A DNA stretch of 64,000 bases, taken from assembly GCA_028820655.1 (NCBI GenBank), contig JAPPIK010000051.1, positions 60,106 to 124,105 on the forward strand. The letters are read 5' to 3'. Shown here one piece after another: positions 2,983 through 49,998 of the stretch (position 1 is the stretch's first letter; each line of letters starts with the position of its first letter). The stretch is from Candidatus Poribacteria bacterium. Lineage in GTDB: Bacteria > Poribacteria > WGA-4E > JAJDTR01. The translations under genes were made by a program, and so were the position numbers. Under the pieces are notes generated by a model. That model saw only the letters and a list, made by a program, of their open reading frames with translations, was not told where the DNA came from and ran no database searches.

Positions 2983-3513
2983 GTCTTCGGTCGCTTTACG
3001 TAAACGTGATTGTCGTATTTTTTCGGACGCATTGACCTACGGCACGGTAGTTATATTACCTGAATCTGCAACTAGAGTCAATTCTAGCCTGAAGGCAGAC
3101 ACATCGGTTTGTAGTGGTCGGCATGGTGGACCTCTAATATCGAAATAGTATTCAATAGACGTTACGTTTCACCCCAATTTCAACCGTTTCAGACAAAATG
3201 GAACCTTGTAAATCTTCATGTGTGATTTCTCATGGAATTCCAATCAACCAAAGCTGCGCTATCGTGGCGCGCGATCGTGCTCGGTTGATTTCGGCAATCC
3301 AACGAGATTACGCCGAAATCAATGCTGAAATGCATTGGATGGCGGCGACCAGATTCTGTTATAATAACAGCTTGTCAGCAACCGGGATTCAGGATACGAA
3401 GAAACCAAGCCGGAGTTATTCGTCACCTTCATCAGTCTGAGTTACGCTCGGTTGTGCATCAGATTAAGTCACAAAATGCTAAACACCAAATTCAAACACA
3501 GGAGAAGATTCAA
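2983..3513. other. Intergenic region between hsdR and a secreted-protein gene
   Basis: About 530 bases lie between two divergent genes. Short reading frames here lack ribosome sites and have no recognisable product. Promoters for both genes presumably lie here, but I see no convincing -35/-10 pair. Confidence 0.4.
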
Positions 3514-4347
3514 ATGAGAAGCATCGTTTCAACTTTTACCGCAACGTTCATCTTGGCAGCGTTATGCAGCTTCGCTTATGCCGGCGCCGTGCCGGGCGCC
3601 GTAATGATTCTTGACGCCTCCGACAACCCCGATCACCCCAAGGCTTGGAAAAACCTTGGCGAAGCGGGCGGATCGCTGTCTGCCGCCGACAAGGCGCCCG
3701 ATCTCGAAGATGGGCCAATCAAGATAGCGAGCTTGGGTATCAATGAGCGAAAAGGGATGTATTACACGGCGAAGGAATCAAAACGAACCTTCGGCGGCCC
3801 CGTCAACAAGAATCCCAAGCTGTATTTGGCCGACTATACTTTTGAGTTCCTTTGCAGGCGAAACGGCAATTTGTTTGTCGAGGAACATCACTTCGTCGGT
3901 TTCCAAAACAGCCCGGCGGAGGGCGCTCAAGGGATTCGCTTTTGGTTGCTGGGCGGCGGCGATGAGCTAGGAATCTCGATCCACGCCAAGGGCTCCAAGC
4001 AGGCTCCCGCGGCGATCAAGATCCAGTTGGAGCAAGATGTTTGGACGTGGGTCACGCTTGTCGGCGAGAACAAAAAGTCGATCGTGGCGTATCAAGACGG
4101 CAGGAAGATTAGCCAACAGGGCGGCTTCGATTGGAACGTAAAATTGCCTATCAATGAGATCTCCATCGGCGCAAATTCTCATAGTGAACGGCGTCGGACG
4201 TTCAACGGTTCATTCTCCCTCGTGCGCGTCTATGACAAGGCGTTGACGCCGGCTCAAGTCTTGAGCAACGCGAAGGGCGTGTTCCTAGCTGTCGAGCCGG
4301 GCGACAAGCTCTCAACGACTTGGGGTAAGTTAAAGCAGGGATTTTAG
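3514..4347 (+). CDS. Secreted LamG/concanavalin A-like protein with TTWG tail
   Basis: A 277-residue protein starting at the ATG behind aggagaag; the same frame is open further upstream but without a ribosome site. Residues 1-23 are a signal peptide (hydrophobic core, cut near AYAGA). The body looks like a single LamG/pentraxin-type beta-sandwich: YTFEFLCRR, WTWVTLVGE, YQDGRK and SLVRVYDKALTPAQV are typical strands of that fold. It probably binds carbohydrate or protein outside the cytoplasm; the ligand is unknown. The end, LSTTWGKLKQGF, matches the ends of two other secreted proteins in this window (genes ending at 20773 and 22854), outside the folded domain. Confidence 0.8.
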   Translation: MRSIVSTFTATFILAALCSFAYAGAVPGAVMILDASDNPDHPKAWKNLGEAGGSLSAADKAPDLEDGPIKIASLGINERKGMYYTAKESKRTFGGPVNKNPKLYLADYTFEFLCRRNGNLFVEEHHFVGFQNSPAEGAQGIRFWLLGGGDELGISIHAKGSKQAPAAIKIQLEQDVWTWVTLVGENKKSIVAYQDGRKISQQGGFDWNVKLPINEISIGANSHSERRRTFNGSFSLVRVYDKALTPAQVLSNAKGVFLAVEPGDKLSTTWGKLKQGF

Positions 4348-10822: not shown

Positions 10823-12208
10823 ATGCCCGAAAAAAAGCCCCATATCCTGCTGCTTATCAACGATGAACACCGCCCCGATGTGATGCCGATTGAAGGCGAT
10901 CCGCACATTCGGACGCCCACCCTTGACCGGTTCATCAACCAAGGCACATACTTCCGCAACGCCTATACGCCGTCGCCGATCTGCGTACCGGCGCGGCAGA
11001 GTTTTCTCTCCGGTCTATACCCGCACAACACGGGCGCCCTCGAAAACGACAACGAGATGCCGAGCGAAACTGTGACCATGCCCGGTCACCTCTCACGCTA
11101 CGGCTACCAAGCGGTCGGCGCGGGCAAGATGCACTTTCCGGGTCCCGACCAGATGCACGGCTGGCATGAACGCATCGGCAGGGATATCCGAGGTCGGAAC
11201 GGCTATGAATCGGCGAAGGATCCGGAGCGCAAAGCCGAGACCTTCACCGAACCCGGTACCGGCAAATGGTCGTCCGCCAAGGAGGTTACGAACGCCCGTG
11301 TCGGCAAGGGTTACTGGATGTCGCACGACAAGTATTGCGTGGACGGGGCGTTGATGTTCCTTGAGGAATACTTTGTCAACGAGGCGTACGACAGACCCGG
11401 CAACCGCCCGCTGCTGCTCGCCGTCAGCCTGTGGTGTCCGCACTATCCGTACCAGTGCCCCGAGGACCTGTTCAACTACTACATGCGCCGTGTGGAGCCG
11501 TACGTCGAGGATTTGCCCGAGAAATTCGCCTGCGACGATTTCTTCAAGGTGAAGATCGGGGAGGATGTGACCTACCGCGAGGCACACCGGGCGACGGCTG
11601 CATATTACGGCATGATCGAGTGGGTGGATATCCAGTACGCCCGCGTCATAGCACGACTTGAGGAGTTGAACGTGCTCGACGACTTCATCGTCGCCTTCAT
11701 GAGCGATCACGGCGAGATGCTGGGGCAGAAGGGGCTGTGGGAGAAACAGCAGTATTTCGAGGCATCGGCGCGCGTGCCGTTCTTCATCTCGTGCCCGGGA
11801 GGCGGGTCAATCTCGACCGAAAGATGGGATTCCATACCGCGCGGGGGTGTCGTTCAGCAGAACGTCTCGTTGGTCGACCTGTTCCCGACGCTATGTGATC
11901 TGGTGAACGTTCCTGCCCCGGAGGGGTTGGATGGGCGTTCGTTGGTTCCGATCATGGAGGGGCGAACGGATGAATGGGAGAACGAGGCGTATTCCGAACT
12001 CCACACGCACCAACACGGACCGTCGGTGATGGTCAAGCACGAGCATCTGAAGTATTTCCGTTTTGAGGGCAAGGGTTGGCCGGAGCAACTCTTCGATTTG
12101 GCGGTCGATCCCGATGAGAACCGAAATCTGATCGATGATGAGGCGTATGCGGAGGATTTAAAGCGGTTGCGCGCCAAAGCAGATTCGTTTAACAGGAGTA
12201 ATGCGTAA
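10823..12208 (+). CDS. Sulfatase (formylglycine-dependent, arylsulfatase type)
   Basis: 461 residues; aagga lies seven bases before the ATG. The sulfatase signature SPICVPARQSFLSG has the C-x-P-x-R core with Cys54, which must be converted to formylglycine for activity. Metal-site motifs are INDEH (residues 12-16; a variant of the common DD) and MSDHGEMLGQKGLWEKQ. It hydrolyses sulfate esters, probably on a polysaccharide or its fragments given the glycosidase-like neighbours. No signal peptide is visible, unlike the sulfatase at 31037, so it may act on imported sulfated sugars. No sulfatase-maturing enzyme is encoded in the window. Confidence 0.93.
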   Translation: MPEKKPHILLLINDEHRPDVMPIEGDPHIRTPTLDRFINQGTYFRNAYTPSPICVPARQSFLSGLYPHNTGALENDNEMPSETVTMPGHLSRYGYQAVGAGKMHFPGPDQMHGWHERIGRDIRGRNGYESAKDPERKAETFTEPGTGKWSSAKEVTNARVGKGYWMSHDKYCVDGALMFLEEYFVNEAYDRPGNRPLLLAVSLWCPHYPYQCPEDLFNYYMRRVEPYVEDLPEKFACDDFFKVKIGEDVTYREAHRATAAYYGMIEWVDIQYARVIARLEELNVLDDFIVAFMSDHGEMLGQKGLWEKQQYFEASARVPFFISCPGGGSISTERWDSIPRGGVVQQNVSLVDLFPTLCDLVNVPAPEGLDGRSLVPIMEGRTDEWENEAYSELHTHQHGPSVMVKHEHLKYFRFEGKGWPEQLFDLAVDPDENRNLIDDEAYAEDLKRLRAKADSFNRSNA

Positions 12209-12353
12209 TGGACTTCCATCTCGCTCATTGTCCGCCCGCTTGAGCGAACTACTATCGCGCTGAGAACTCTATGGGAGGTCTACCGCGTTCGCTATTCACT
12301 CACTTGCTGGAACTGCATCGCATTCGCTATTCGCTCATTTGATCCCTATGGAT

Positions 12354-12374
12354 GGTGGGCAGAGCCCACCCTAC
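12354..12374 (-). repeat. Class-2 GTAG hairpin, preceded by solo insert units
   Basis: GTAG, then GGTGGGCT C TGCCCACC on the minus strand. Just before it (12270-12343) are two to three copies of the cgttcgctattcactcacttg unit found nested in composite REPs. Confidence 0.75.
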
Positions 12375-12457
12375 ACTTAGATTCGGTTGATCGTTATTCA
12401 CTCGCTTGATGGAAACTATTTTTACGGATTACGCTTCACGTATTCCTACACAACACA

Positions 12458-13975
12458 ATGACCCCTCACAAACTCGATTACGGCACGGAACTATTTGTAG
12501 ACGATTTGCTCATTGAGACGAAGCGCGGTGTCACGCGCACGCTTCATCCGGCGGCCAAAACACCGGAACCGGTCTTGGCGCCGGAGCCCGGCAAGCCGTG
12601 GGAGAACGACGGACCCGAGCGAACCAAACGGGTGAATCTCTTGGGAACGGTGCTCCACGACAAGAGGTCGAACAGATACCAGATGTGGTATTTGGCTCGC
12701 ATGGATCCGGATCACGGACACCGCATCCCCGGTTTATATGTCCCCCGCACCGGCGCCGGAGACGCCACCCGGTACATGGGACGGCGCACAGACGATGACG
12801 GCAGGAATTTCCGAGGCAGCGACATCGGCGACCTGCTCTGCTATGCCGAAAGCGATGACGGGCTGAAGTGGACCAAACCGGATTTGGGGGTGTTCGATTT
12901 TGACGATAGCCCGAACAACAACATCGTTTGGGACCTGCACGGCGCCAGCGTATTTCTTGACGACGCCCGAGACGACTGGGAGCGTTATACGGCGATCGGT
13001 TTTTGCCGCCGCTACCGGAACATCTTCGTGATAAAGTCGCCCGACGGTATCCATTGGAACGATGAAGGATTGAAACAGCCGGTGATAGAGCGCTCCAACG
13101 AGGGACCTACGAATGTGGTGTACGACGCAAAGGCTGACCGCTACCTCTCTTATATGCTGCTCGGGGGAGGAGCGGAGCGCCGCCACATCGAATACAGCGA
13201 GAGCGAGAAATTGGAAGACGGCTGGTCGGAAATAACCCCCATGCTGGAGCCGAGTCCGAGAGACGACGCGCTGGGAAAAGAACGCTACGGCGCCATCCGA
13301 GCGGAGTTTCACAACATGTCCGGTTATCCCTATGGCAGCATTTATGTCGGTATTTTGGGCGTCCTCTACGTCACCGAGGATATCGTGAATACCGTGCCGG
13401 GGCAGGCAGCCGTCGATGGCCCCATCGACGCGCAATTCGTCTATAGCAGAGACGGCGTGAACTGGCACCATTTTGAAGACCGGACACAGGTTCTTCCACG
13501 CGGGAAGGGTGGCGAATACGATTCGGGCATGATTCTCTTCACCGCCAAGGAGCCGTTGGTAGAAGATGACGAGATCCATTGGTATTACACCGGCAGCACA
13601 CAGACGCACGGCAAACTGTTGAAGGACAAGGTGATGTCCATCGGGAGAGCCAGTTGGCGGTTAGACGGGTTTGTCTCGCTCGATGCGGCTGACGGCGTGG
13701 TTGAAACCGTTCCGCTGCAAATGCCGGACGGGGGGCTCGAAGTGAACGTTGACGCGAGCGCGGGCAGCCTTGCCGTCGAGGTGTTGTCGCCGGACGGAGG
13801 GGTGCAGTCAGGATATTCGGCGGAAAGCTGCACGTCTATCCGCGGGGATCACGTGCGCCATCCGGTTCGCTGGGGTGACCGCGGTTTGAATCGGGCGGAA
13901 CAGCCGTGCCGGCTTCGTTTTCGTTTGAAGGGTGCGAGGCTTTACAGTTTTCGTATTCTCCCGCCTGGAGATTGA
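12458..13975 (+). CDS. Propeller glycosidase-like protein (paralog 2)
   Basis: A 505-residue member of the eight-protein family. Family motifs in order: DYGTELFVDDLLIE (entry strand), YQMWYLARMD, LLCYAESDDGLKWTKPDLGVFDF, NNNIVWDLHGASVFLDD, KSPDGIHWND, DAQFVYSRDGVNWHHFE, EIHWYYTGS, then the C-terminal domain LEVNVDASAGSLAVEVLS ending RLRFRLKGARLYSFRIL. No signal peptide. It is most like the two genes at 60633-63970 in the LHGASVFLDD and DGPIDAQ segments. The start codon lacks a clear ribosome site. Glycoside-cleaving activity is inferred from the fold only. Confidence 0.78.
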   Translation: MTPHKLDYGTELFVDDLLIETKRGVTRTLHPAAKTPEPVLAPEPGKPWENDGPERTKRVNLLGTVLHDKRSNRYQMWYLARMDPDHGHRIPGLYVPRTGAGDATRYMGRRTDDDGRNFRGSDIGDLLCYAESDDGLKWTKPDLGVFDFDDSPNNNIVWDLHGASVFLDDARDDWERYTAIGFCRRYRNIFVIKSPDGIHWNDEGLKQPVIERSNEGPTNVVYDAKADRYLSYMLLGGGAERRHIEYSESEKLEDGWSEITPMLEPSPRDDALGKERYGAIRAEFHNMSGYPYGSIYVGILGVLYVTEDIVNTVPGQAAVDGPIDAQFVYSRDGVNWHHFEDRTQVLPRGKGGEYDSGMILFTAKEPLVEDDEIHWYYTGSTQTHGKLLKDKVMSIGRASWRLDGFVSLDAADGVVETVPLQMPDGGLEVNVDASAGSLAVEVLSPDGGVQSGYSAESCTSIRGDHVRHPVRWGDRGLNRAEQPCRLRFRLKGARLYSFRILPPGD

Positions 13976-14154
13976 GGGCGTGTATCGCGCATGGTCCATT
14001 GATCTTTAGAGATTATCTTGCACCGCATTTGGAAGGTTGGATTGACGTTGCTGATTGGTCGGTTCGCTAAGAATATATGGCAAGAGATGGGAGCCGGTAG
14101 TTAACACGCTACCAAGTAACTCTTTTTCAGAATCAGTCTTGGAGAAGGAAATCT

Positions 14155-14203
14155 GTACCACAATCTGTTAGATTGTGATCCGCAAACTAACAGTTTGCGG
14201 TAC
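14155..14203. repeat. Double-hairpin element, second copy
   Basis: Two perfect hairpins, CACAATCT GTT AGATTGTG and CGCAAACT AAC AGTTTGCG, separated by three bases and flanked by GTAC on both sides. Confidence 0.8.
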
Positions 14204-14208
14204 GAGAG

Positions 14209-14680
14209 TGTTACGTGCTGAAGGAAGTATTCCGATTGGAATAATGTCATGCTCTCAAGTAACACTCGACATAGCACTCCGCTGGAGTGCGGCGATTGGA
14301 CGCATCATGATTCTATTGACATTGCACTCCGCTGGAGTGAAAACCAGACGACGAAGGAACACTTTTCACGGCTAATCATTGAGCGAAAAAAACCAGTGTT
14401 ACTTGCTGAAAGAATTATCCCGACAGGGATAATGGCACGCTCTTAAGTAACACTCCACATTGCACTCCGCTGGAGTGCGGTGATTGGACGCATCACGATT
14501 CTATTGACATTGCACTCCGCTGGAGTGCAGACGCGGTGAGGAATCGTGTTCTATTGACATCTCACTCCTCTGGAGTGAAACTATTCTACGATGGAATGCT
14601 TTTTCAAAACCTGTCATAGAGCGCAAAATGAGTGTTACTTGCTGACAGAATTATTCCGACAGGGACAATGGGGTGCTCTT
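14209..14680. repeat. 188-bp tandem duplication with CACTCC hairpins
   Basis: The phrase gtgttac.tgctga occurs at 14209, 14396 and 14631. Inside are five copies of the hairpin GCACTCC GCT GGAGTGC or a near variant (14274, 14324, 14462, 14512, 14562); copies 1/3 and 2/4 are each 188 bases apart. Unlike other hairpins here they lack a GTAG foot. A related hairpin is at 50213-50229. Confidence 0.75.
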
Positions 14681-14746
14681 AACCATGATTCGCGGGATCT
14701 CTTTCGCGGTCGTAGTACACTCCCTTGATCCCGCACTGCAAGAAAT

Positions 14747-14767
14747 GGTGGGCAGTGCCCACCCTAC
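14747..14767 (-). repeat. Class-2 GTAG hairpin
   Basis: GTAG plus GGTGGGCA C TGCCCACC on the minus strand. Relative to 8898-8918 both sides of one stem pair are changed together (C-G to G-C). Confidence 0.8.
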
Positions 14768-14787
14768 AATACGCTACGGTGGGGTGG

Positions 14788-14814
14788 GAATCGCGACCGG
14801 GAGGTCGCTCCTAC
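14788..14814 (-). repeat. REP palindrome
   Basis: 27 bases: GTAG foot, GCGACC TCCC GGTCGC stem-loop, GATTC tail, on the minus strand. Confidence 0.88.
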
Positions 14815-14833
14815 CGGGTGGCGTATGGTGGGG

Positions 14834-14860
14834 GAATCGCGACCGGGAGATCGCTCCTAC
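14834..14860 (-). repeat. REP palindrome
   Basis: 27 bases, same orientation as the REP at 14788 and 46 bases from it. The stem is GCGATC/GGTCGC with one G-T pair. Confidence 0.88.
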
Positions 14861-14934
14861 CGGCAGGGGAATGGCATGATTTTCAATCATTCATCAGTTC
14901 GAGGATTAAGATTTAATGGGAGAACCAAACGCGC

Positions 14935-16575
14935 ATGACGGATAAACCGGAAAAGAGAAGCCTTACCGAACCGTTGGACATCCAGCGGAAGATCGACGAC
15001 ACGCTGGCGGGCAGGCGCCCGATTGAAAGTAGGAAGTATCCTCACTTTATGCCCGATTACGAGATTCCGTTTCTCCACATCGGTACGCAGAAACAGTTGT
15101 TCTTGGATAACTTTATCATCGATCACCTTGAGGATGTGGAAAGGGTGATCCCCGAACCGTACCGTCCCGAAGAGCCGATTCTCGAGGTTGGAGACCTCCC
15201 TTGGGAGATTCACTACAACCCTTTTCCGTCGGGCGCGGTCCAAGACCCCGACGACGGCAAATTCAAGATGTGGTACATCCAATCCCTGTCCGGCGACCCG
15301 TTCAACACGGGTCAAGTGTTGTGCTATGCCGAATCGATCGACTGTATCCACTGGGAAAAGCCTCTCAGCGACAAATGTTTGCCATACGAGAATTACAGGG
15401 AGACCAACATCGTGGAACGGGACACCGCGGGCGTGACGGTGGTGCTCAACCACGATCAGAGCGACCCCGATAAGAAGTTCCTGATGCTCTACAGTGCCTA
15501 CGGCTTGGCACGTGAGAGAGGCGAACCTCTCACATCCACGGTGAAGGCGTCGCCGGACGGATTGCGCTGGACGACCGTCAGCGATTACAGCACCTACCGC
15601 CATCATCACGAGCCGAGAATCATCTGGGACGAATCGATAGAAAAGTGGGTTGCCTACAGTCAGTATTCCCATCACCAGAACTTCCTGTACCGCAAACGGC
15701 AAATTGGGCGGCAGGAGAGCGAGGACTTCATCAACTGGTCGCCCAAGGAGGTGGTGATATCGGTGGATTGGGAGCCGGACTTGCCCCCGAATCTGGAGTT
15801 TCACGAGATGTCGGTTCGCAAGGTCGGCGGGCAATATATCGGCATCCCCGGCGAGTTCATGGCTGAGCCGATCTGGTGCTCCAGAGACGGTGGGAACTGG
15901 CGGGATCTGGCGTTTGTCAGGCTGGGTTTATACACGAGCCGCGACGGCAGACGTTGGGTGCGGGTCGGGGGACCGGGAGCATGGGTCGACAACCGCGCTC
16001 CGGGGAGCATCGACTACGGCTACGTCTGCTATACATCTACCGGTCAGCTCGTTCACGACGGAAAACTCCATATTCCGTACTTGGCGATTCCGGACAAACA
16101 GGAATGGTACAGTTATCCGCCGCCCGCGTTAATGGTGCCCGAAGCCGCCTTCGAAGCGGGCAAAGCGGATTGGGAGAATTTGGTAGCGGTTATGGGCGGC
16201 TACCCGAGACGGCGCCGCTCGGTCGGCGCGCTCATCCTGCGGGAAGACGGCTGGGCGGAACTCAAGCCGACCTATGAGAACGGCAAGGTGTTTGCCAGGC
16301 AGTTTGTGTTCGAGGGTGATTGCCTGAAGATCAATGCCGACTGTTACGGCGGGTATATGCGCGCCGAGATTCTCGATCCCGATTTCAAGCCGTACCCCGG
16401 ATTCGCCGCTGAGGATTCTGTCCCCGTGTGTTCGGATGATCCCAATCAGATTTGGCACACCGTACGTTGGAAAGACGATGCGGATTTGAGAACACTGTGG
16501 AACAAGCCGTGCCGACTCTGTTTTCATCTTCATCAGGCGAGTCTGTACGCCTTTCAGTTTGAAGAGGGTCAGTGA
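14935..16575 (+). CDS. Propeller glycosidase-like protein (paralog 3)
   Basis: 546 residues, the near twin of paralog 1. Long stretches agree almost residue for residue, e.g. LHIGTQKQLFLDNFI, YSQYSHHQNFLYRKRQIG, WSPKEVVISVDWEPDLPP, MSVRKVGGQYIG. The propeller spans about 40-430 and the C-terminal beta domain 440-546 ends HQASLYAFQF. There is no signal peptide. The gene sits directly behind two REPs, about 8.6 kb from its twin with a sulfatase and another propeller gene between. Probably acts on a related glycan; no substrate is known. Confidence 0.8.
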   Translation: MTDKPEKRSLTEPLDIQRKIDDTLAGRRPIESRKYPHFMPDYEIPFLHIGTQKQLFLDNFIIDHLEDVERVIPEPYRPEEPILEVGDLPWEIHYNPFPSGAVQDPDDGKFKMWYIQSLSGDPFNTGQVLCYAESIDCIHWEKPLSDKCLPYENYRETNIVERDTAGVTVVLNHDQSDPDKKFLMLYSAYGLARERGEPLTSTVKASPDGLRWTTVSDYSTYRHHHEPRIIWDESIEKWVAYSQYSHHQNFLYRKRQIGRQESEDFINWSPKEVVISVDWEPDLPPNLEFHEMSVRKVGGQYIGIPGEFMAEPIWCSRDGGNWRDLAFVRLGLYTSRDGRRWVRVGGPGAWVDNRAPGSIDYGYVCYTSTGQLVHDGKLHIPYLAIPDKQEWYSYPPPALMVPEAAFEAGKADWENLVAVMGGYPRRRRSVGALILREDGWAELKPTYENGKVFARQFVFEGDCLKINADCYGGYMRAEILDPDFKPYPGFAAEDSVPVCSDDPNQIWHTVRWKDDADLRTLWNKPCRLCFHLHQASLYAFQFEEGQ

Positions 16576-17094
16576 AACGGGATTTGGCAGTAGTAGGCGT
16601 ACTCCGTATGCCGTAACCCCGGTGCAGATTCCGCAACAGCAGAGGGATTCCTATCCGAACTTCCTATGGACTCGCTTCAGCGGGAACTCTTACCGGCCAG
16701 ATTCCCCTTCACTATTCGTTCCGTTGACCCCTTACCGTTCGCTCGATCGGTTTCAGTTTATCGACAGATATCGTACTGGCAAATAGCGGTTAAAGTCACT
16801 CCTCCCAACCAATTACCAAGATTTCTTTCACACCTGTTATTCAAACGGACTCTTGGACATTCCCGTACGCACCTGATGAAATTGGGATTGTACCAAATAC
16901 TCGATACCGACTCGTATATCATTTTATTGGGACGAAAGTAAGAAATCTGCACATTTCCCGAGAAAATTAATCGGTCGTGTGATGATTCCCCTCCAAAGTG
17001 CATCTTCAATAGTAGAAGGCACGTCTCCAGGCAGACAGCGAGTTTCATTCAGAAGGTCTTTCGCATCCAACCACTCAAGCTTGGGAGTCAAAGG
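16576..17094. other. Intergenic region before the sigma-propeller gene
   Basis: About 520 bases with degraded repeat-like phrases (ttcactattcgttccgttgacccc) and no convincing gene. Confidence 0.4.
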
Positions 17095-19803
17095 ATGACA
17101 CTGAGCGATGTCGAGTTAATCGAGCGCACATTGGCGGGCGACGAAACCGCATTCGGGTTTCTGGTAGATAAATACAAGGGTGCGGTGCACGCCCTGGCGT
17201 ACCGAAAGCTCGGGGATTTTCAACTTGCCGAGGAAATTGCTCAGGACACGTTTCTGGCGGCGTACCAGAAACTGGGGACACTGAGGAATCACACCCATTT
17301 ACCGGGCTGGCTCTATGTCATCGCTTCCCGTCGTTGCTTGATGTGGCAGCGGAAGAATCGACCGCGGGTGCAATCAATTGGCGAGATGAAGACGGGTGAA
17401 ATGGATTCGATCGCGCAGAGAAGGCATGCCGAGAAACAGACTCAACAACAGGTACGCGACGCACTCGAGAGCCTACCCGAAAGTGAACGCACAGTGCTGA
17501 CGCTGCACTATTTCGGGGGGCTGACAGGCAAGGAGATCGCACAGTTTATCGGCACCTCACCCGGCGCCGTTCTAAATCGGCTCTATCGCGCACGAGCCCG
17601 ACTGAAAGAGGAGATTATACCGATGATACGGGCAACCTCAGGCATGATCCAACTACCTCCAACCTTTACTCAACAACTCATTCGCCAAATTCGCGAACTT
17701 CAACCAACACCCTCGCCGAGCGGGAAACCATGGGTCCCGTGGATTGCGGCGACAACAGTTTTCGTGATTGCGCTGTTCATCGGTATCGGGCAGCAAAGGA
17801 TGACTTCGTTTCAACGCCCCTATAGCTTGGATGCGCCCGAATCGGAGATCATGGTCGAGATTTTGGACATGCCGGTGGTTGAGCCGCTACCGGCGGAACG
17901 GCCTCTGTTCATTCATGGCGTACCTTCGATCGCGGGAAAGACTGGCACAGGAGACCGAAGCAACGACGCCGTTTTAGGGAAAGCCGTAGAGCCGCCGGCG
18001 CGAGCCAAATCGGCCTACGCGGAGTGGACGCCGATGAATGGGCCTTACGGCGGGACGATTTTGTCCCTGCTTGCTACGCCGGAGGGAACGCTTTTCGCCG
18101 GCACAGATTACGCACTTCTTTTCCGATCGCCCGACGGCGGGCAGTCATGGAAAAAAGTTCATACACCCCTTGAGGATTTACCTCATTTGAGGTGGCTGAC
18201 GTCGCTGGCGGCGATCGACGATACGCTTTACGCCACGGGGAGTTTTGTTGTCTCCTCAACGGATGGCGGCGATTCTTGGACGAGAGACGTCCGGTTTGGA
18301 GAAGACAGAGATGGCTTTTGCGGCGTCGCGATAATTAAAGGGACACTTTATGCGGGATCGAGGGAAAGGGGGGTGCTACGTTCAAACGATGATGGGCAAA
18401 CATGGGTGCCCATGAATGAGGGCTTGACTGATTCTCCGGATTCTCAATCCGAGAACGTGCCGGGAATAGGAATAATACCGGAGCCTATGATTAACACATT
18501 CCTCGCAGAGGGTGCCACACTCTACGTGGGATCCGACGCCGGGGCTTTCCGGCGCAAAGCAGGTGCTGACCGGTGGGAGCCGTTGCATAAAGCCATGTTT
18601 ACGGATGTGAGAACAGGTCTCGAACTCCCGAAAAATCCGGCTCAACCGTTCTCTTCTGTCCGTTCTCTTGCCACAAAAGGCGGTGAGATTTACCTCGCTA
18701 CTAGGGAAGCTCTATACCGCTCTTCAACCGGTGGTTCTTCGTGGAAACAGATTCCATGGAAAAACGAATTATACCGCGGTTCAATCATGTCGATTGCCGC
18801 AGCCGGCGACATGGTCTACGCCGGTGTATATTCCAGCGGTGTCTTTCGCTCAACCGATAATGGGCAAACTTGGAAGTCGGCCAGCGCGGGAATAGCTAGT
18901 TCGACGGTGCAAGACGTGGAAGGACTAAATGGCGCGGTCTACGCGACAGATCGCTTTAGCGTCAGCCGGTCTTCAGATAGAGGCATATCGTGGGAAACCA
19001 TTCACAAGGGACTGCCCCCCGACAGCTATATTGAGCGGCTCGTCGTCTCGACCGGAACTCTCTACGCCGCCGTTGGCAGTCTCGCCGGACAAATCTATCG
19101 ATGGGATGAATCCCGGGCGTCGTGGTTACGAGTTGCATCGGACACGCGACTGATTGGCGTCAGTTCGCTGACGATTCAAGGGAAGATCTTCTGCGTCGGA
19201 ACGAATCACGATGGGGTTTTTCGCTCGCCCGACGGGGGTGGGATTTGGACTGAACTAGGGCTTCGCGGAAAAAAGATCAACGCGATTGCGGTGCGTGGAA
19301 TGGACATTTACGCAGGCACCGAGGGTGAAGGAATTTTTCGGCTGGAGCACGGCAGTGGAACGTGGCAGCAGCTCGACGTGAGTTCAACGATCCACCGCGT
19401 CCGCGATTTGGTGGTTGCGGACGGGACGTTGTACGCCGCTGGAATAACGACGCGGGGACCCCTGGTCCGCAGACTGCTTTGTGACGTTGGCAATTATGCG
19501 ATCAGAGGGGTTCTGCGCTCTCACGACGGAGGCGATTCATGGAAGATGGTTAATGGCGGTCTGAAGGCTGGAATGGGGGTCACCTCGTTGGCGGTTGACC
19601 AATCCACTCTTTACACAAGCGACGGGCTTCGAATTTTTCGGTTGCCACTTGGTGCAGACTCGTGGGAACCGGTTAGCTCCGGACTGACGAGGGATCCCCT
19701 TCATGTTCAGTGTTTGGGAGTCGATGGGGCAGCGGTTTACGCCGGCACATTTGGATTCGGGGTTTTTCAGGTTTCGCTGGATGCAGAGCTTGAAAAGCCG
19801 TAG
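17095..19803 (+). CDS. ECF sigma factor fused to membrane-anchored propeller
   Basis: A 902-residue protein. Residues 1-90 are sigma region 2 (DETAFGFLVDKYKGAVHALAY, EEIAQDTFLAAY) and 115-175 are region 4, a helix-turn-helix (LTGKEIAQFIGTSPGAVLNRLY). A single membrane segment lies at about 213-232 (WVPWIAATTVFVIALFIG). After a linker, 310-900 hold repeated BNR/Ycf48-type blades (RSPDGGQSWKKV, SSTDGGDSWTR, RSNDDGQTWVP, RSTDNGQTWKS, RSHDGGDSWKM), as in sialidase or Vps10-type propellers. By topology the sigma domain would be cytoplasmic and the propeller outside, so an external ligand could control sigma directly. No anti-sigma gene adjoins it. One uninterrupted frame carries both parts. Confidence 0.88.
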   Translation: MTLSDVELIERTLAGDETAFGFLVDKYKGAVHALAYRKLGDFQLAEEIAQDTFLAAYQKLGTLRNHTHLPGWLYVIASRRCLMWQRKNRPRVQSIGEMKTGEMDSIAQRRHAEKQTQQQVRDALESLPESERTVLTLHYFGGLTGKEIAQFIGTSPGAVLNRLYRARARLKEEIIPMIRATSGMIQLPPTFTQQLIRQIRELQPTPSPSGKPWVPWIAATTVFVIALFIGIGQQRMTSFQRPYSLDAPESEIMVEILDMPVVEPLPAERPLFIHGVPSIAGKTGTGDRSNDAVLGKAVEPPARAKSAYAEWTPMNGPYGGTILSLLATPEGTLFAGTDYALLFRSPDGGQSWKKVHTPLEDLPHLRWLTSLAAIDDTLYATGSFVVSSTDGGDSWTRDVRFGEDRDGFCGVAIIKGTLYAGSRERGVLRSNDDGQTWVPMNEGLTDSPDSQSENVPGIGIIPEPMINTFLAEGATLYVGSDAGAFRRKAGADRWEPLHKAMFTDVRTGLELPKNPAQPFSSVRSLATKGGEIYLATREALYRSSTGGSSWKQIPWKNELYRGSIMSIAAAGDMVYAGVYSSGVFRSTDNGQTWKSASAGIASSTVQDVEGLNGAVYATDRFSVSRSSDRGISWETIHKGLPPDSYIERLVVSTGTLYAAVGSLAGQIYRWDESRASWLRVASDTRLIGVSSLTIQGKIFCVGTNHDGVFRSPDGGGIWTELGLRGKKINAIAVRGMDIYAGTEGEGIFRLEHGSGTWQQLDVSSTIHRVRDLVVADGTLYAAGITTRGPLVRRLLCDVGNYAIRGVLRSHDGGDSWKMVNGGLKAGMGVTSLAVDQSTLYTSDGLRIFRLPLGADSWEPVSSGLTRDPLHVQCLGVDGAAVYAGTFGFGVFQVSLDAELEKP

Positions 19804-19972
19804 AATTGTTTTTCAACCCCGCGATCGGGAAGAAGCCGCCACAGCATCACCCCAACAGAGGTTTTTTTGCTTCAACCCGGTCAACACTCCCCCGTCTAAA
19901 CAGAACAGAGGTCTTTGCGCCTGAATTCAATCGACAACGAAAATGCCACCTTCCCAATTGGAGGGGATTCTC

Positions 19973-20773
19973 ATGAGATGGATACCGATCGTCTTGCTAT
20001 TAGCCGGCTCTCCGCTCTTCACAGCATATTCCGGTACGTTTACGGATGATTTTAGTGATGGAGATCTTGACGGATGGGATGTCTTCATCCACCCGCCACT
20101 TCCGCGCGAAGAAGCTGCACATGTTGTCAAACTTGAAGATGGGGATTTAGTTATAGACACGATCGCCAAAAGGGTTGAACTTCCTCCCGGTTTCGACTTC
20201 ATAGAATTTGTGCGTATGGAATTGAGAGTAGGGGATATGGATGCGTGGAATTCTTACACGCTAACTTGCCAGGTAAAATTTGACAGTGCGCCACGCGAGG
20301 GGCCGGGAATGTTTGTGGTCGGTGTGCGGAGAAGCGAGGGGCATTTTGGCGTGACGGCTCAGCAAATATTACTGATTCTTCCGACACAGCAACACATTCA
20401 GGTGGAAACCGTTGAACCGCACGCCGAGCGCGACCCTATATTAGGGCTGCAGGGGGTGATTCACCATGAAGTCCTCGATCCCAGAAATTTCAGACGGCCC
20501 ATAAAACTCAAACAGTGGCTCCCAATCAAAATCGTGGCTGAGGAAAGCAGGTTTGAGTTTCATTTAGACGAGAATCTCGTAGCCGAATACGAAGATGAAA
20601 ATGCGGGGCCCGGTACCGTTATGTTTCAGGCAGAATTCATGATGGTTGTTCGTCTTGATGACTTTATGATTACGGGACCGGGAATCCCGAACAATGACCC
20701 ACCTCAAAGCGTTAGGCATGAAGCGCGTCTGGCCACCACTTGGGGAGAAATCAAGAACCTTCCCAATAAATAA
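19973..20773 (+). CDS. Secreted beta-sandwich protein with TTWG tail (copy A)
   Basis: 266 residues from the ATG at 19973, preceded by gagggg; an in-frame ATG at 19943 has no ribosome site and would spoil the signal peptide. A signal peptide (IPIVLLLAGSPLFTAYS) is followed by FTDDFSDGDLDGWDVF, a typical opening of DUF1080/LamG-like jelly-roll domains, then YTLTCQVKF, QWLPIKIVAEE, FEFHLDENLVAEYED and VRLDDFMITGP. The C-terminus RLATTWGEIKNLPNK shares the TTWG motif. It is a paralog of the gene at 22096. It lies 170 bases after the sigma-propeller gene and may be co-regulated; its ligand is unknown. Confidence 0.75.
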   Translation: MRWIPIVLLLAGSPLFTAYSGTFTDDFSDGDLDGWDVFIHPPLPREEAAHVVKLEDGDLVIDTIAKRVELPPGFDFIEFVRMELRVGDMDAWNSYTLTCQVKFDSAPREGPGMFVVGVRRSEGHFGVTAQQILLILPTQQHIQVETVEPHAERDPILGLQGVIHHEVLDPRNFRRPIKLKQWLPIKIVAEESRFEFHLDENLVAEYEDENAGPGTVMFQAEFMMVVRLDDFMITGPGIPNNDPPQSVRHEARLATTWGEIKNLPNK

Positions 20774-21217: not shown

Positions 21218-21931
21218 ATGAAAAGCAAACTTTTTCTATTCTTCTCATGCCTTGTTTTTCTGATTTCGGTTATCTATATTGCGTTTGTATCTATCAGAGG
21301 GAAAATCCACGCCAAAAGCGAACAGCCACCATCGAAAATGTCTGCAAACTTAAACGAGAATTATCGCTATGCCAAGACCATAGCTCCGAAACCCCGACAG
21401 GACGAGTTTAGCGAGTTGACCGACGCTGAACTGGAAGCCGCGCTTGAATATCTTGGGGCTTTAGACGCCCAATCGGGTACTGTGGAAAAACCACAGGCAC
21501 AAGATACACAATTTGCGATTTCCGAGTCCGACACCTTTGAAGAACAGGACATTGCAAGCGGAACTGATCCAGGGTTGAAAGCGACGTTTGAATTTTATAA
21601 GAGAAATCTGACACGGCATTGGGAAATCGCGCACCAGACCACACCCCTTATGAACAAGATTGTTGAACTCGATGAGAGCATGGATGATCTTGATAATCGC
21701 ATGAACGAAATAACTGGCAGAAGCGAGGAACGTCAGAAGTTAAGGAAGACATATCGGCAACTACAGAAAGAGCGGGCTGAAGTCAGCATTGCCCTTGAAC
21801 CTCTTGATGAACTCCAGGCACAGGTCGATAAGGAATGGAAGGATTACCTTTGGGCACACCACGGGATGTCCAATAGTCAATTCCTTGAAGCGCACGGAAC
21901 GGCGCTTAGGTCGTGGTTAGCCAGTCAGTGA
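21218..21931 (+). CDS. Membrane-anchored coiled-coil protein, unknown function
   Basis: 237 residues; aggagg lies five bases before the ATG. Residues 4-26 form one membrane helix (FLFFSCLVFLISVIYIAFV). The rest is hydrophilic and mostly helical, with a predicted coiled coil at about 145-205 (heptad-like MNKIVELDESMDDLDNRMNEI, RQLQKERAEVSIALEPLDEL). No enzyme motif or family is recognised. It sits between two paralogous TTWG-tailed secreted proteins and may be an envelope structural or adaptor protein. Confidence 0.65.
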   Translation: MKSKLFLFFSCLVFLISVIYIAFVSIRGKIHAKSEQPPSKMSANLNENYRYAKTIAPKPRQDEFSELTDAELEAALEYLGALDAQSGTVEKPQAQDTQFAISESDTFEEQDIASGTDPGLKATFEFYKRNLTRHWEIAHQTTPLMNKIVELDESMDDLDNRMNEITGRSEERQKLRKTYRQLQKERAEVSIALEPLDELQAQVDKEWKDYLWAHHGMSNSQFLEAHGTALRSWLASQ

Positions 21932-22095
21932 AGGCAGTAACTGTTCACTTCTTCCGGAACTGGAAAAGCGAAATCTACGCGTCATTATCGCAGCACGAAA
22001 TCAAAGATGAAATGTTCAATGTATATGGCAATTCAAAACCGAGAATTAGGTTCGCCGCCTGTTATTCAAACAGGTTTTAGCCGAGGGGATTGCTC

Positions 22096-22854
22096 ATGAA
22101 ATGGTTGCTATTAGCCATACTCATTGCCGGACTGCCCGCAGCCGCCGCGCATTCAGGTACGTTTCTGGATGATTTCTGTGATGGAAACCTTGACGACTGG
22201 AGTGTCCAATTCTCCCTCGATTTCCCCGATTCCGTCAAAATCGAAAATAGATACCTTGTCATGGATACGACAGCCGGAAAACGAGCAAGGACTGTTTCTG
22301 CCGAGATTAAAATAGAGAACGAACAAAACTGGGACTCTTACACACTTACATGTCGAGTTCGTTTTTCCAGTGAGTTGATTTGGGAGGACCCACAATTTAG
22401 CATTACTGTTCAAGGACGAAACGGGCAATTTGACCTGATGACTGGTCAAATACTGTCGGTACTTCCAATTGTCCAGCTTTTACTAGTGGATACCATTCCA
22501 CCAGACGTCAAACCCGACCAAGATAACATGATTAATATAATCCGCCGCGCAAATTTCGGACCCGAACGTCTCAGACGCCGCATAAAGTTAGATCGGTGGC
22601 TCCCAATCAAAATCGTGGTAGATCGAGATTATCTTGAGTTTCATTTCGACGACAGATTGGTAACAGAGTATGAAGATGAGACGGCGCTCCCGGGCACCGT
22701 GGAATTCAGTGCGGCTCAGGGAATGCTCGTTCATGTGGATGACGTTGTTGTTACGGGGCCGCGCATCCCAAACATTGGTGATCCCCGTAACGTTGACCTG
22801 AAGTCACATCTAGCTACGACGTGGGGAGAAATCAAGAATTCGCCGCGCCGATGA
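22096..22854 (+). CDS. Secreted beta-sandwich protein with TTWG tail (copy B)
   Basis: 252 residues from the ATG at 22096, preceded by gagggg as in copy A. Signal peptide LLLAILIAGLPAAAAHS, then FLDDFCDGNLDDWSV and the same string of motifs as copy A (SYTLTCRVRF, RWLPIKIVVDR, LEFHFDDRLVTEYED, VHVDDVVVTGP). The end is HLATTWGEIKNSPRR. Copies A and B clearly arose by duplication and flank the coiled-coil gene. The fold is DUF1080/LamG-like; a carbohydrate ligand is plausible but unproven. Confidence 0.75.
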   Translation: MKWLLLAILIAGLPAAAAHSGTFLDDFCDGNLDDWSVQFSLDFPDSVKIENRYLVMDTTAGKRARTVSAEIKIENEQNWDSYTLTCRVRFSSELIWEDPQFSITVQGRNGQFDLMTGQILSVLPIVQLLLVDTIPPDVKPDQDNMINIIRRANFGPERLRRRIKLDRWLPIKIVVDRDYLEFHFDDRLVTEYEDETALPGTVEFSAAQGMLVHVDDVVVTGPRIPNIGDPRNVDLKSHLATTWGEIKNSPRR

Positions 22855-47725: not shown

Positions 47726-47916
47726 GAGTCCTGCGCGGCGGGATGGACTGCGTTGCACATCGGGACCGGCAAAGCGAGAGGGTCTTTGACGTGCCTTTCA
47801 GCACAAACGCGCCTCGCAACGGTTAAACATAAATCGTCAACATCGTCTTGCTTTGTAGGCGGGGATAATTCATAATTGGATTGAGACAGGAAAATCACAA
47901 CAGCATCAAGAGGGTT

Positions 47917-49998
47917 ATGATGCAGAATCGGAAACCTGCACTATTTCAAGATAGAGTTCGCCATGACGATGTCAGCCGGTATGCGTTGCCGGATGAAGCG
48001 GTCGCCCGATTGGGACAGGGGAATGTGTGGGATATGGCAATCTCGCCGAGCGGCGAGTATCTTGCCGTCGGAACTCCGTGCGGACTGTGGTGGTATGAGT
48101 TCTCGACGATGTCTCGGGTTGCGCTATGGAATCTGGAGGCGGGAGGGGTTGCCAGGATTGCCGCCGTCTCATTTTCCCCTGACGGTGAATTGATTGCGAC
48201 GGGGGGATACGATGGCCTCGTCAAAGTCTGGGACATCCCGCGCGGCGCCCCCGTTTCGAAGATGGAGCGATGGGAAAACCACAATCAACTACTGCGCCAA
48301 AACGAGATTTCTCGTCTCGCCTTTTCACCGGATGGTCAAATGCTCGCCGTCTCCGGCAGGCGAGACTACATCGTCGACATCTTGCGCCCGGATACCGGTG
48401 AAACGCTTGCAAAAATCAATAGCGAACACCAAATGGAGGTGCGGTATTGCGCGCTCACCAGACCGGTCGCTTTCTCACCCGACAACCTTCTGATCGCCTG
48501 CGCAAGTCCGGACGATGCGAATCCCTCAAGCGAGCCGACAGAGGAGTGCATCTCCGTATGGGATGTGTCTGGTAGTGAACGCGTGGCGTACCTCACGGAC
48601 TATCGCGATGTGCTGTATTCTCTCGCCTTTTCGCCGTGCGGCCGTTTCCTGGCCGCCGGCGGTCACAGGAAGGGTAAGGCGAAACTGAAGGTATGGAGTA
48701 TCGGTAGTTGGCAACTGCACCGGTCACACCCGGATATGGGCGCGGACCGGATTATCGTTTCTTATTCGACCGGGAATGTCCTCTGTGCCGCTGCGGTGTT
48801 TGATGGAAAAAACACCGTGGAGGTCTGGGACGTAGAACACACCGAGAACCTCTATACCTTAAAAAATGACGGCGAAATAGGAGCCGTACATTTCGCAAAA
48901 GGAACGCAGTTGGTCGCTGACTGTTTTCACGATTTTAGGGTGCGTACGGACGAGAACCCACACACTCGCGCATTCGCCCATCTGCATACCGGTTTTGCCG
49001 AATCCCTCGTGTTTTCGTCCGATGAGAAAACCTTAGCGAGCGCTCACCGGGGAGGCGGAATCCGGTTATGGGATGTTGACGTGCCGTCGAAAGCCCCGAG
49101 GATATTCCATCCACCCGGCACCGGTCATCGCGTCTACGCGCCGGCCTCCGGAAAAATCCACGCCACAAGTCGAGACGAAAACACCGTTAATGTCTGGGAG
49201 GTTGGAATCAACACCCCCCTTGCTCAAATCACACTGGAGAAACCGCCAAGCTACGGAGCCGTGGCGTATTCCGCCAAGACCCAACGCCTCGGGTGCGGGG
49301 ATGACAACGGGACGATCAGCGTGTGGGAGGTACCGCATGGGGAAAGGCGCTGCACCTTTACGGCGCATACCACCGAGATCGTGAACTTGGTGTTTAGTCC
49401 GAACGGTAAATATCTTGTGAGTTTGGCAAATTACGGTCCCGATTCGCGGCTCTGGGACATTGAACGCGGAGAAGAGATTCCAGATTTCCCCGGAAACCGA
49501 ATTGAGTTCGTTGGGTTCTCCCCATGCAGCGCCCTGATCGTCGGCGACACGGAGAAAGAGATTCTATTGTGGGATGTGGAACGTTGCGAAACCCGGTTGA
49601 CAATACCAAAGCCGGAAAGTTGGATTCATAACGGATTGTGGCAGATGGCATTGGCTTTCTCGCCGTGCGGACGATATTTTGCATCTGCCCCGTGGTGGGA
49701 ATTGGGTATGGCGCGGGTTCCGGTGCGGTTATGGAGGGCGGCAACAGGTGAGATTCTCGCCACGTTCCGGGGACACGCGCGGGATGTCGCCGCACTGGCT
49801 TTTTCGCCGGAGGGCTCGCGGCTGGCAAGCGGCGGTTGCGACGGTACCATCCTTCTTTGGGATATTACCCCTTATGTGGAGAGCGCCCATGGGACTTCCT
49901 TACCCGATATTCTCCCGCTAACACGGGAGGACGAAGGCGACGCCGGTGTTCGCGATTTAGGCGCTCGTCTCGGTGGCGGTCGCTTGAGCCGATTCTAA
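47917..49998 (+). CDS. WD40 repeat protein
   Basis: 693 residues from one of two adjacent ATGs (47917/47920) behind aagaggg. About 11-12 WD40 blades: GNVWDMAISPSGEYLAVGT, AAVSFSPDGELIATGGYDGLVKVWDI, SRLAFSPDGQMLAVSG, LAFSPCGRFLAAGGHR, VNLVFSPNGKYLVS, VAALAFSPEGSRLASGGCDGTILLWDI. They would form one 12-bladed or two smaller propellers. No signal peptide, membrane segment or attached enzyme domain, so a protein-interaction scaffold is likely. It stands alone between two minus-strand GH172-like genes. Confidence 0.9.
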   Translation: MMQNRKPALFQDRVRHDDVSRYALPDEAVARLGQGNVWDMAISPSGEYLAVGTPCGLWWYEFSTMSRVALWNLEAGGVARIAAVSFSPDGELIATGGYDGLVKVWDIPRGAPVSKMERWENHNQLLRQNEISRLAFSPDGQMLAVSGRRDYIVDILRPDTGETLAKINSEHQMEVRYCALTRPVAFSPDNLLIACASPDDANPSSEPTEECISVWDVSGSERVAYLTDYRDVLYSLAFSPCGRFLAAGGHRKGKAKLKVWSIGSWQLHRSHPDMGADRIIVSYSTGNVLCAAAVFDGKNTVEVWDVEHTENLYTLKNDGEIGAVHFAKGTQLVADCFHDFRVRTDENPHTRAFAHLHTGFAESLVFSSDEKTLASAHRGGGIRLWDVDVPSKAPRIFHPPGTGHRVYAPASGKIHATSRDENTVNVWEVGINTPLAQITLEKPPSYGAVAYSAKTQRLGCGDDNGTISVWEVPHGERRCTFTAHTTEIVNLVFSPNGKYLVSLANYGPDSRLWDIERGEEIPDFPGNRIEFVGFSPCSALIVGDTEKEILLWDVERCETRLTIPKPESWIHNGLWQMALAFSPCGRYFASAPWWELGMARVPVRLWRAATGEILATFRGHARDVAALAFSPEGSRLASGGCDGTILLWDITPYVESAHGTSLPDILPLTREDEGDAGVRDLGARLGGGRLSRF

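Follow-up and report, generated by a model that had tools for sequence, protein, structure and literature searches.

How might a bacterium couple a signal from outside the cell to transcription with a single protein? This question is raised by a gene at positions 17095-19803, on the plus strand, of a 64,000-nucleotide stretch of DNA (hereafter the window, to which coordinates refer unless another locus is named) from a Candidatus Poribacteria bacterium (GenBank assembly GCA_028820655.1, contig JAPPIK010000051.1). Poribacteria are a sponge-associated, uncultured phylum. The gene is a single uninterrupted open reading frame (ORF) of 902 codons, whose 902-residue product joins an extracytoplasmic function (ECF) sigma factor to a membrane helix and a large propeller ectodomain. 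Our preferred reading, to which we give a probability of roughly 60%, is that the product acts as a membrane-held, one-component ECF receptor, which would switch on its own operon, probably via intramembrane proteolysis. This reading draws on architecture, conservation, promoters, shuffling and secreted neighbors, all as read from sequence, and from these it proposes a topology, a sensing step, an inhibited state, proteolysis and autoactivation.

The protein has the domain layout by which ECF (group 4) sigma factors are recognized. Sigma region 2 (residues 23-89, positions 17161-17361; Pfam PF04542 Sigma70_r2, E 1.7e-12) and region 4 (residues 118-170, 17446-17604; PF08281 Sigma70_r4_2, E 7.3e-16) are separated by 28 residues, with region 3 absent and no further sigma domain found by Pfam, and the NCBIfam sigma70-ECF model scores 85.1 bits against a cut-off of 42.9. 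There follow, all on the plus strand, a cytoplasmic juxtamembrane segment (residues 174-214, 17614-17736; consensus QLPP.FTQQ.I..I..L.P....KP..PW), a transmembrane helix (residues about 214-239, 17734-17811), a putative extracytoplasmic stalk (residues about 238-262, 17806-17880; FQ.PYS..A.E...VEI.D) and an ectodomain of about 590 residues (307-897, 18013-19785). Residues 214-232 form the sole strong hydrophobic 19-mer (mean 2.14, with 1.33 for the runner-up outside this region), and an AlphaFold2 model places a helix at 218-239 and propeller strands at 322-894. Pfam matches of the Sortilin, DUF6242 and YCF48 type (BNR repeats) in the C-terminal part, together with AlphaFold2 and Foldseek, point to about 13 BNR/Ycf48-like blades, which likely form two propellers. 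The model is moderate overall (mean predicted local distance difference test score [pLDDT] 70, predicted template modeling score 0.57), with the sigma domain and blades mostly above 70. ORF, Pfam, hydrophobicity and model hence agree with the original prediction, made from the sequence of this gene, that one frame holds regions 2 and 4, a transmembrane helix and a BNR/Ycf48 propeller, and that the sensor is built into the sigma factor itself.

The closest Foldseek matches of the model are GH74 two-propeller enzymes (1sqj, E 6.8e-20). The periplasmic sensors BT4663, BT4673 and BT3049 are also among the matches (E about 5e-18 to 4e-15), with TM-scores of merely 0.23-0.31, and VIA-align puts general propellers first (Z 24-26, mostly across about 270 residues). 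These three are Bacteroides hybrid two-component sensors, which couple sensor to transcription output in one protein; they share the two-propeller extracytoplasmic sensor with the window protein but have a histidine-kinase/response-regulator output rather than a sigma factor. The ligand cannot be read from the fold, and glycans are a guess from the fold resemblance and the neighboring genes. Pfam found no zinc-finger or other anti-sigma domain in the window protein, and because only about 41 residues, in which no Cys/His zinc motif was found, separate region 4 from the helix, a fused classical anti-sigma domain appears to be absent.

Judged from alignments, residues 1 to about 280 (sigma domain, cytoplasmic segment, helix and stalk) form a single cassette, which recombination has joined to unrelated ectodomains. 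Among 117 aligned members, mean pairwise column identity is 0.68 in region 2, 0.64 in region 4, 0.52 in segment 174-214, 0.45 in the helix, 0.60 in the stalk (about 238-262) and 0.34 beyond it. The strongest conservation outside the sigma regions is that of the stalk, just outside the membrane, and not that of residues 180-210, where cleavage had been suspected. The stalk consensus RFQ.PYs..A.SE.TvE is common to members with BNR (68 sequences), WD40 (36) and other ectodomains (13). When 52 pairs with sigma parts at least 85% identical were compared, the ectodomains were at least 70% identical in 15, 40-70% in 16 and below 40% in 8, and gave no BLAST match in 13. Three example pairs keep 77-97% identity per 40 residues as far as residue 280 and then drop to 7-40%; in two further pairs the pattern is inverted, with similar ectodomains and more distant sigma parts. 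The break at about residue 280 and the 13 of 52 pairs with unrelated ectodomains suggest that the output module has moved between sensors. We base this claim on these observations and not on nearest-neighbor discordance (sigma part and ectodomain agree on their nearest relative in 26 of 119 genes), which in part is noise arising from equidistant paralogs.

An ECF-type promoter-like site of the window's clade, TGTGATGATT-N10-GTGCATCTT, lies 88 bases before the ATG (16978-17006, plus strand). A matrix made from nine other family genes, excluding the window, has its best score on either strand of the whole 64 kb at 16975 (24.8 bits), the next best being 7.7 bits. The motif of the window's group (f1/f4), TCTGATNATT-N10-GTGC[AG]TCAT, was first spotted by eye in upstream regions and then tested with the window left out; it is present within 220 bp in 10 of 28 family loci, and WD40-type members of this group have another promoter form, read by eye. 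Identity in nine window-clade genes (nine of the ten with the motif, L242 being excluded as near-identical to L241) is 0.76 and 0.92 in the two boxes versus 0.44 in the spacer and 0.43 and 0.40 in the flanks. In 11 genomes the pattern has 10 matches, all upstream of family genes, nine of them 59-88 bp before the start and one (G014:C31) about 690 bp before it; the reversed control has one. Family genes are found by design because the pattern was drawn from them, and the informative results are the left-out test and that nothing else was found.

A different pattern, the dyad TGCA[AC]C-N17/18-CGTC, occurs mostly in family f2, being present in 52 of 134 upstream regions versus 3 of 486 of other genes. 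These 134 regions remained, after removal of near duplicates, from 139 usable regions of 148 full-length family ORFs. An unseeded motif search recovered the same TGCA[AC]C/CGTC motif. ECF promoters typically combine an AAC-type -35 with a CGTC-type -10 element, and the f2 dyad appears to have this shape. A stricter form of the dyad has 16 sites in a closed chromosome of 6,656,312 bases (G081), with none in the reversed control: seven precede family receptors (35-343 bp), one precedes a secreted-protein gene that itself precedes a receptor (L227), one precedes another ECF gene (L217) and the remainder adjoin mixed genes or short ORFs. The f2 promoter was rejected as the promoter of the window gene, upstream of which its matrix scores 2.6 bits, a value equalled by 16.5% of shuffles; the f2 pattern, with 13 matches in the window's genome and 6 in the control, is also close to background there. 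The family carries a further mark of ECF sigma factors, an ECF-type promoter before its own genes, in the form of promoter-like sequences. These sites suggest that the sigma factor transcribes its own gene and that the clades have diverged in promoter choice.

As had been supposed, the propeller most likely lies outside the cytoplasmic membrane, because the protein has a single helix and its sigma domain must meet RNA polymerase in the cytoplasm. This location is supported by the occurrence of ectodomain homologs as stand-alone signal-peptide proteins: 56 non-receptor ORFs in the neighborhoods are homologous to ectodomains (E<1e-20); 23 of them begin with what resembles a signal peptide, and among the others several come immediately after truncated receptor frames, of which they seem to be the broken ends. 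We propose that the external propeller senses a signal while the helix holds the sigma domain at the inner membrane face. Inhibition may come from this membrane position or from a short helix at residues 189-200, and a signal passing through the conserved stalk would free or activate the sigma domain. The main hint of a common signaling step at the stalk is that, when sensors are exchanged, helix and stalk stay behind with the sigma part. The most likely form of activation would be release by two-step intramembrane proteolysis at stalk and helix, because both are unchanged whichever ectodomain is attached and because of what is known of IutY and has been proposed for ECF52 (PMC8999054). The freed sigma factor would then start transcription at the promoter before its own gene, raising its own level, and the same activation would raise the closely following secreted-protein genes.

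Several points weigh against this reading. Without a recognizable anti-sigma domain, how the sigma factor is kept off is unexplained, and residues 178-306 (linker and juxtamembrane helix) have a pLDDT below 50. Charges flanking the helix are ambiguous, with K/R at 2.26 and D/E at 1.91 before it and 1.62 and 0.10 after it. A member of the site-2 protease family is present in the genome, but the family is also found in 14 of 14 control genomes and its presence says little. Among the promoters, 18 of the 28 f1/f4 loci are without one of this (A) type in the 220 bp examined; the patterns were derived from the family genes themselves, so that their absence elsewhere is valid at that stringency alone; and 9 of the 16 strict f2 sites in the closed chromosome are not directly before family receptors, so that these promoters are not private to the family.

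It is also possible, though unlikely, that transcription occurs without release, the anchored sigma factor being activated by a shape change or helix dimerization and bringing RNA polymerase and DNA together at the membrane. One-component regulators of the CadC/ToxR type act while membrane-tethered, and conservation of helix and stalk with all ectodomains would fit such a mechanism, as would the failure to see either a cleavage motif or a dedicated protease. However, a sigma factor has to accompany RNA polymerase during initiation, and the sole experimentally characterized fused ECF sigma factor, IutY, is released by proteolysis (PMC8999054). We regard as improbable an ECF57-like account in which an ordinary ECF sigma factor is controlled by a separate regulator (an anti-sigma factor, a kinase or transcriptional control), with the C-terminal part serving as a membrane address or adhesin. 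That the protein is without an anti-sigma domain speaks for this account, and the WD40 extensions of ECF57 have been proposed to bind partners (PMC8999054). A constant cassette with swapped ectodomains, in contrast, fits interchangeable inputs, and the neighbors are variable secreted proteins, with no conserved partner gene found by inspection, without clustering, of the listed neighborhoods.

An accidental or recently decayed fusion, or a sequence or assembly error, can practically be dismissed: frameshifted family copies do exist in some draft genomes, but the 902-residue frame is intact, both halves are under purifying selection and the junction is identical in many genomes and in closed chromosomes, a recurrence that by itself refutes this explanation. 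Nothing points to a misjoin, since third-position guanine-plus-cytosine content is steady along the frame (0.49-0.66 per 100-codon block) and the other two plus-strand frames across the gene are rich in stops (36 and 28). A frameshift between the two parts was rejected on the open frame, composition, stop counts and the intact recurrence of the architecture across many genomes. The median ratio of nonsynonymous to synonymous substitution (dN/dS) in 24 pairs is 0.10 for the sigma part (n=20), 0.13 for linker, helix and stalk (n=24) and 0.24 for the ectodomain (n=24), with a highest single value of 0.42; the pairs were picked by overall identity, which favors similar ectodomains, and the higher sigma dS among them was not used as proof. 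As dN/dS is low in sigma part and ectodomain alike, both ends of the protein appear to be maintained by purifying selection.

The same architecture was found intact in many poribacterial genomes when it was sought in relatives. A profile (A1) of the first 330 residues, made from the window protein, L031 and 23 of 29 relative loci (six omitted, among them L051, whose start had been misread), reaches E<=1e-60 in 69 of the phylum's 84 genomes and in 9 of 21 genera, with at most 26 candidates scored per genome. In a scan of the genomes of 84,980 species with the N-terminal alignment, all of the best 80 of 472 relatives are loci titled Poribacteria. Within the window's genome the protein has 59 matching places (E<=0.001), including one long paralog (C55, 40% over residues 2-601), and further ECF frames there continue into WD40, PD40, CarboxypepD_reg or lectin-C domains. 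When the closed chromosome was searched alone with A1, 95 of 123 candidates matched at E<=1e-10, of which 56 extend past the transmembrane helix (E<=2.8e-109). It has a tandem run of twelve family genes on the minus strand (1,524,816 to 1,573,145), and all 42 members sampled from it hold both sigma regions, with DUF6242 (BNR type) matched by 23 and WD40 by 12. We lean toward the view that a receptor repertoire has been built from an output cassette of about 280 residues swapped onto BNR, WD40 and other ectodomains, in arrays of up to a dozen and in more than 50 copies per genome, with clade-specific self-directed promoters, such that each receptor would be sensor, transcription factor and amplifier in one. 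A viral origin was rejected, one scan of viral contigs having given one weak propeller-only match (30%, 51 residues) and no relative of the sigma part. Separately, 18 of the 95 matches in the closed chromosome are family-like ECF types (E 2e-94 to 7e-73); their open frames span 215-1026 residues, and the profile match stops close to region 4.

The combination of ECF sigma factor, membrane part and external domain is already known from ECF52/SCO4117, ECF48, ECF53 and IutY (PMC8999054, PMC5826349). ECF52/SCO4117 of Streptomyces coelicolor likewise holds sigma, transmembrane and extracytoplasmic domains in one protein, as do helix 214-239 and the presumably external ectodomain 307-897 here, and proteolytic release and autoregulation have been proposed for it (PMC5826349, PMC8999054). 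In the same sources, however, ECF52 is described as carrying a zinc-finger anti-sigma domain plus a carbohydrate-binding module and as exclusive to Actinobacteria, with no second member beside SCO4117 in that genome, whereas we find no zinc finger, propellers or other ectodomains instead, Poribacteria as the source of the best 80 of 472 relatives, and tens of copies. IutY of Pseudomonas putida (ECF243) is a sigma factor fused to a membrane-bound C-terminal part and is activated by stepwise proteolysis, by Prc and RseP; this part is an anti-sigma factor in iron-starvation cell-surface signaling (PMC8999054), and no FecR-type anti-sigma domain was matched in the window protein at E<=1 (Pfam). 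ECF57 shares propeller-type repeats in a C-terminal extension but has a cysteine pair between sigma2 and sigma4 (PMC8999054); residues 1-180 of the window protein hold one cysteine, C81, with none in region 4, and its blades are of BNR type, WD40 being found in 12 of the 42 members sampled. The SigI-RsgI systems of Clostridium thermocellum likewise have several paralogous membrane sensors, with polysaccharide-binding ectodomains, and autoregulating sigma factors (PMC4711584), with proteolytic signaling through RseP (PMC12203970). They differ in that two proteins are involved and SigI is not an ECF sigma factor and has no region 4 (PMC4711584), whereas here one protein includes region 4. By analogy, the family may work most like SigI-RsgI folded into one protein.

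By these features, the family is not a member of ECF52, ECF57, ECF243 or SigI. It is new as far as we searched in its lack of an anti-sigma domain, its exchangeable propeller or other ectodomains, the size of its expansion, its arrays and its clade-specific promoters, although a numbered ECF group may cover it. No description of such proteins in Poribacteria was found in the literature searched; by word search, the 2014 poribacterial genome paper contains neither 'sigma' nor 'ECF', and it reports abundant WD40 domains (PMC3909097). For sigma factors that themselves bear an external sensor, the known cases are single ones (SCO4117, IutY), and their mechanism has barely been tested. Tens of natural ectodomain swaps on a near-constant cassette, together with readable promoters, make the mechanism directly testable, both for release against tethered action and for the role of the stalk. 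If our reading is true, the family is a bacterial one-polypeptide alternative to sigma/anti-sigma pairs that is open to ectodomain swaps; it hints at a way in which uncultured bacteria of sponges may sense their environment, and is a possible source of modular one-gene biosensors.

Two secreted proteins with a TTWG tail had been noted as following the receptor directly and as candidate targets. Both do follow it, on the plus strand: the first, a candidate for cotranscription with a signal-like N-terminus, at 19973-20773 (ORF opening at 19943), and the second, a 44% identical paralog, at 22090-22854. They are not directly successive, since a 237-residue ORF (21218-21931, plus strand) sits between them; it has a hydrophobic N-terminus, a coiled-coil-like body and weak family matches, and is a possible operon member. 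The gap between receptor and next gene measures 139 bp if that gene opens at 19943 and 169 bp if it begins with the likelier ATG, at 19973, and no terminator-like hairpin was found in it. Across the family, signal-peptide proteins follow 24 of 31 intact receptors versus 61 of 171 other pairs of the same spacing (Fisher p 2e-5), for receptors of at least 700 residues whose next gene lies on the same strand at a distance of -20 to 180 bp, duplicate downstream proteins removed and signal peptides called by our own heuristic rule; without the length and duplicate filters, and within 150 bp, the count is 29 of 47, a set in which several entries are pieces of the receptor itself, split off by frameshifts. 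Neither the f2 nor the window-clade model found a family promoter upstream of 19943, 21218 or 22090. The short gap, the missing hairpin and the family trend make the first TTWG gene plausible as a target, and probably the best candidate; the 21218 ORF and the 22090 gene, with no family promoter before either, are weaker candidates, and the claim for the second TTWG protein is unsupported. A CGTCATTAT string upstream of 22090 was rejected as a promoter, as it has no -35 box and is outside the top 12 matches of the clade model.

The tail itself, KLATTWG.[IL]K, is shared by 22 of 692 non-receptor ORFs and by none of 172 receptors, and looks like a sorting or anchoring tail; examples are 3322-4347, 19973-20773 and 22090-22854 in the window, L073:12084-12785 and L205:11851-12771. 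An AlphaFold2 model of a TTWG protein had a mean pLDDT of 53, and its fold was not used. In one genome, a membrane protein of about 470-490 residues with the near-identical start MLMTLIQKE[IV]M.HILS.RFVAL recurs beside receptors (L197:9690-11120, L199:12399-13868, L205:9229-10641 and 16226-17641). Three ORFs near receptors (L111:4556-5701, L118:4689-5855, L192:14647-15951) resemble juxtamembrane segment, helix and ectodomain with no sigma domain, and are either remnants or separate sensors. In the window, 47881-49998 encodes a 705-residue WD40-like protein without a sigma domain that is 28% identical over 647 residues to receptor ectodomains, and on the same contig before the window a one-strand run of BNR-type open frames of 335-484 residues was seen (G000:C61:22452-36014). 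Upstream of the receptor gene, 10823-16575 contains an ORF judged sulfatase-like by eye, along with a pair of long ORFs (12458-13975 and 14935-16575) that are alike by eye, the second without a Pfam match; these genes may possibly serve glycan breakdown.

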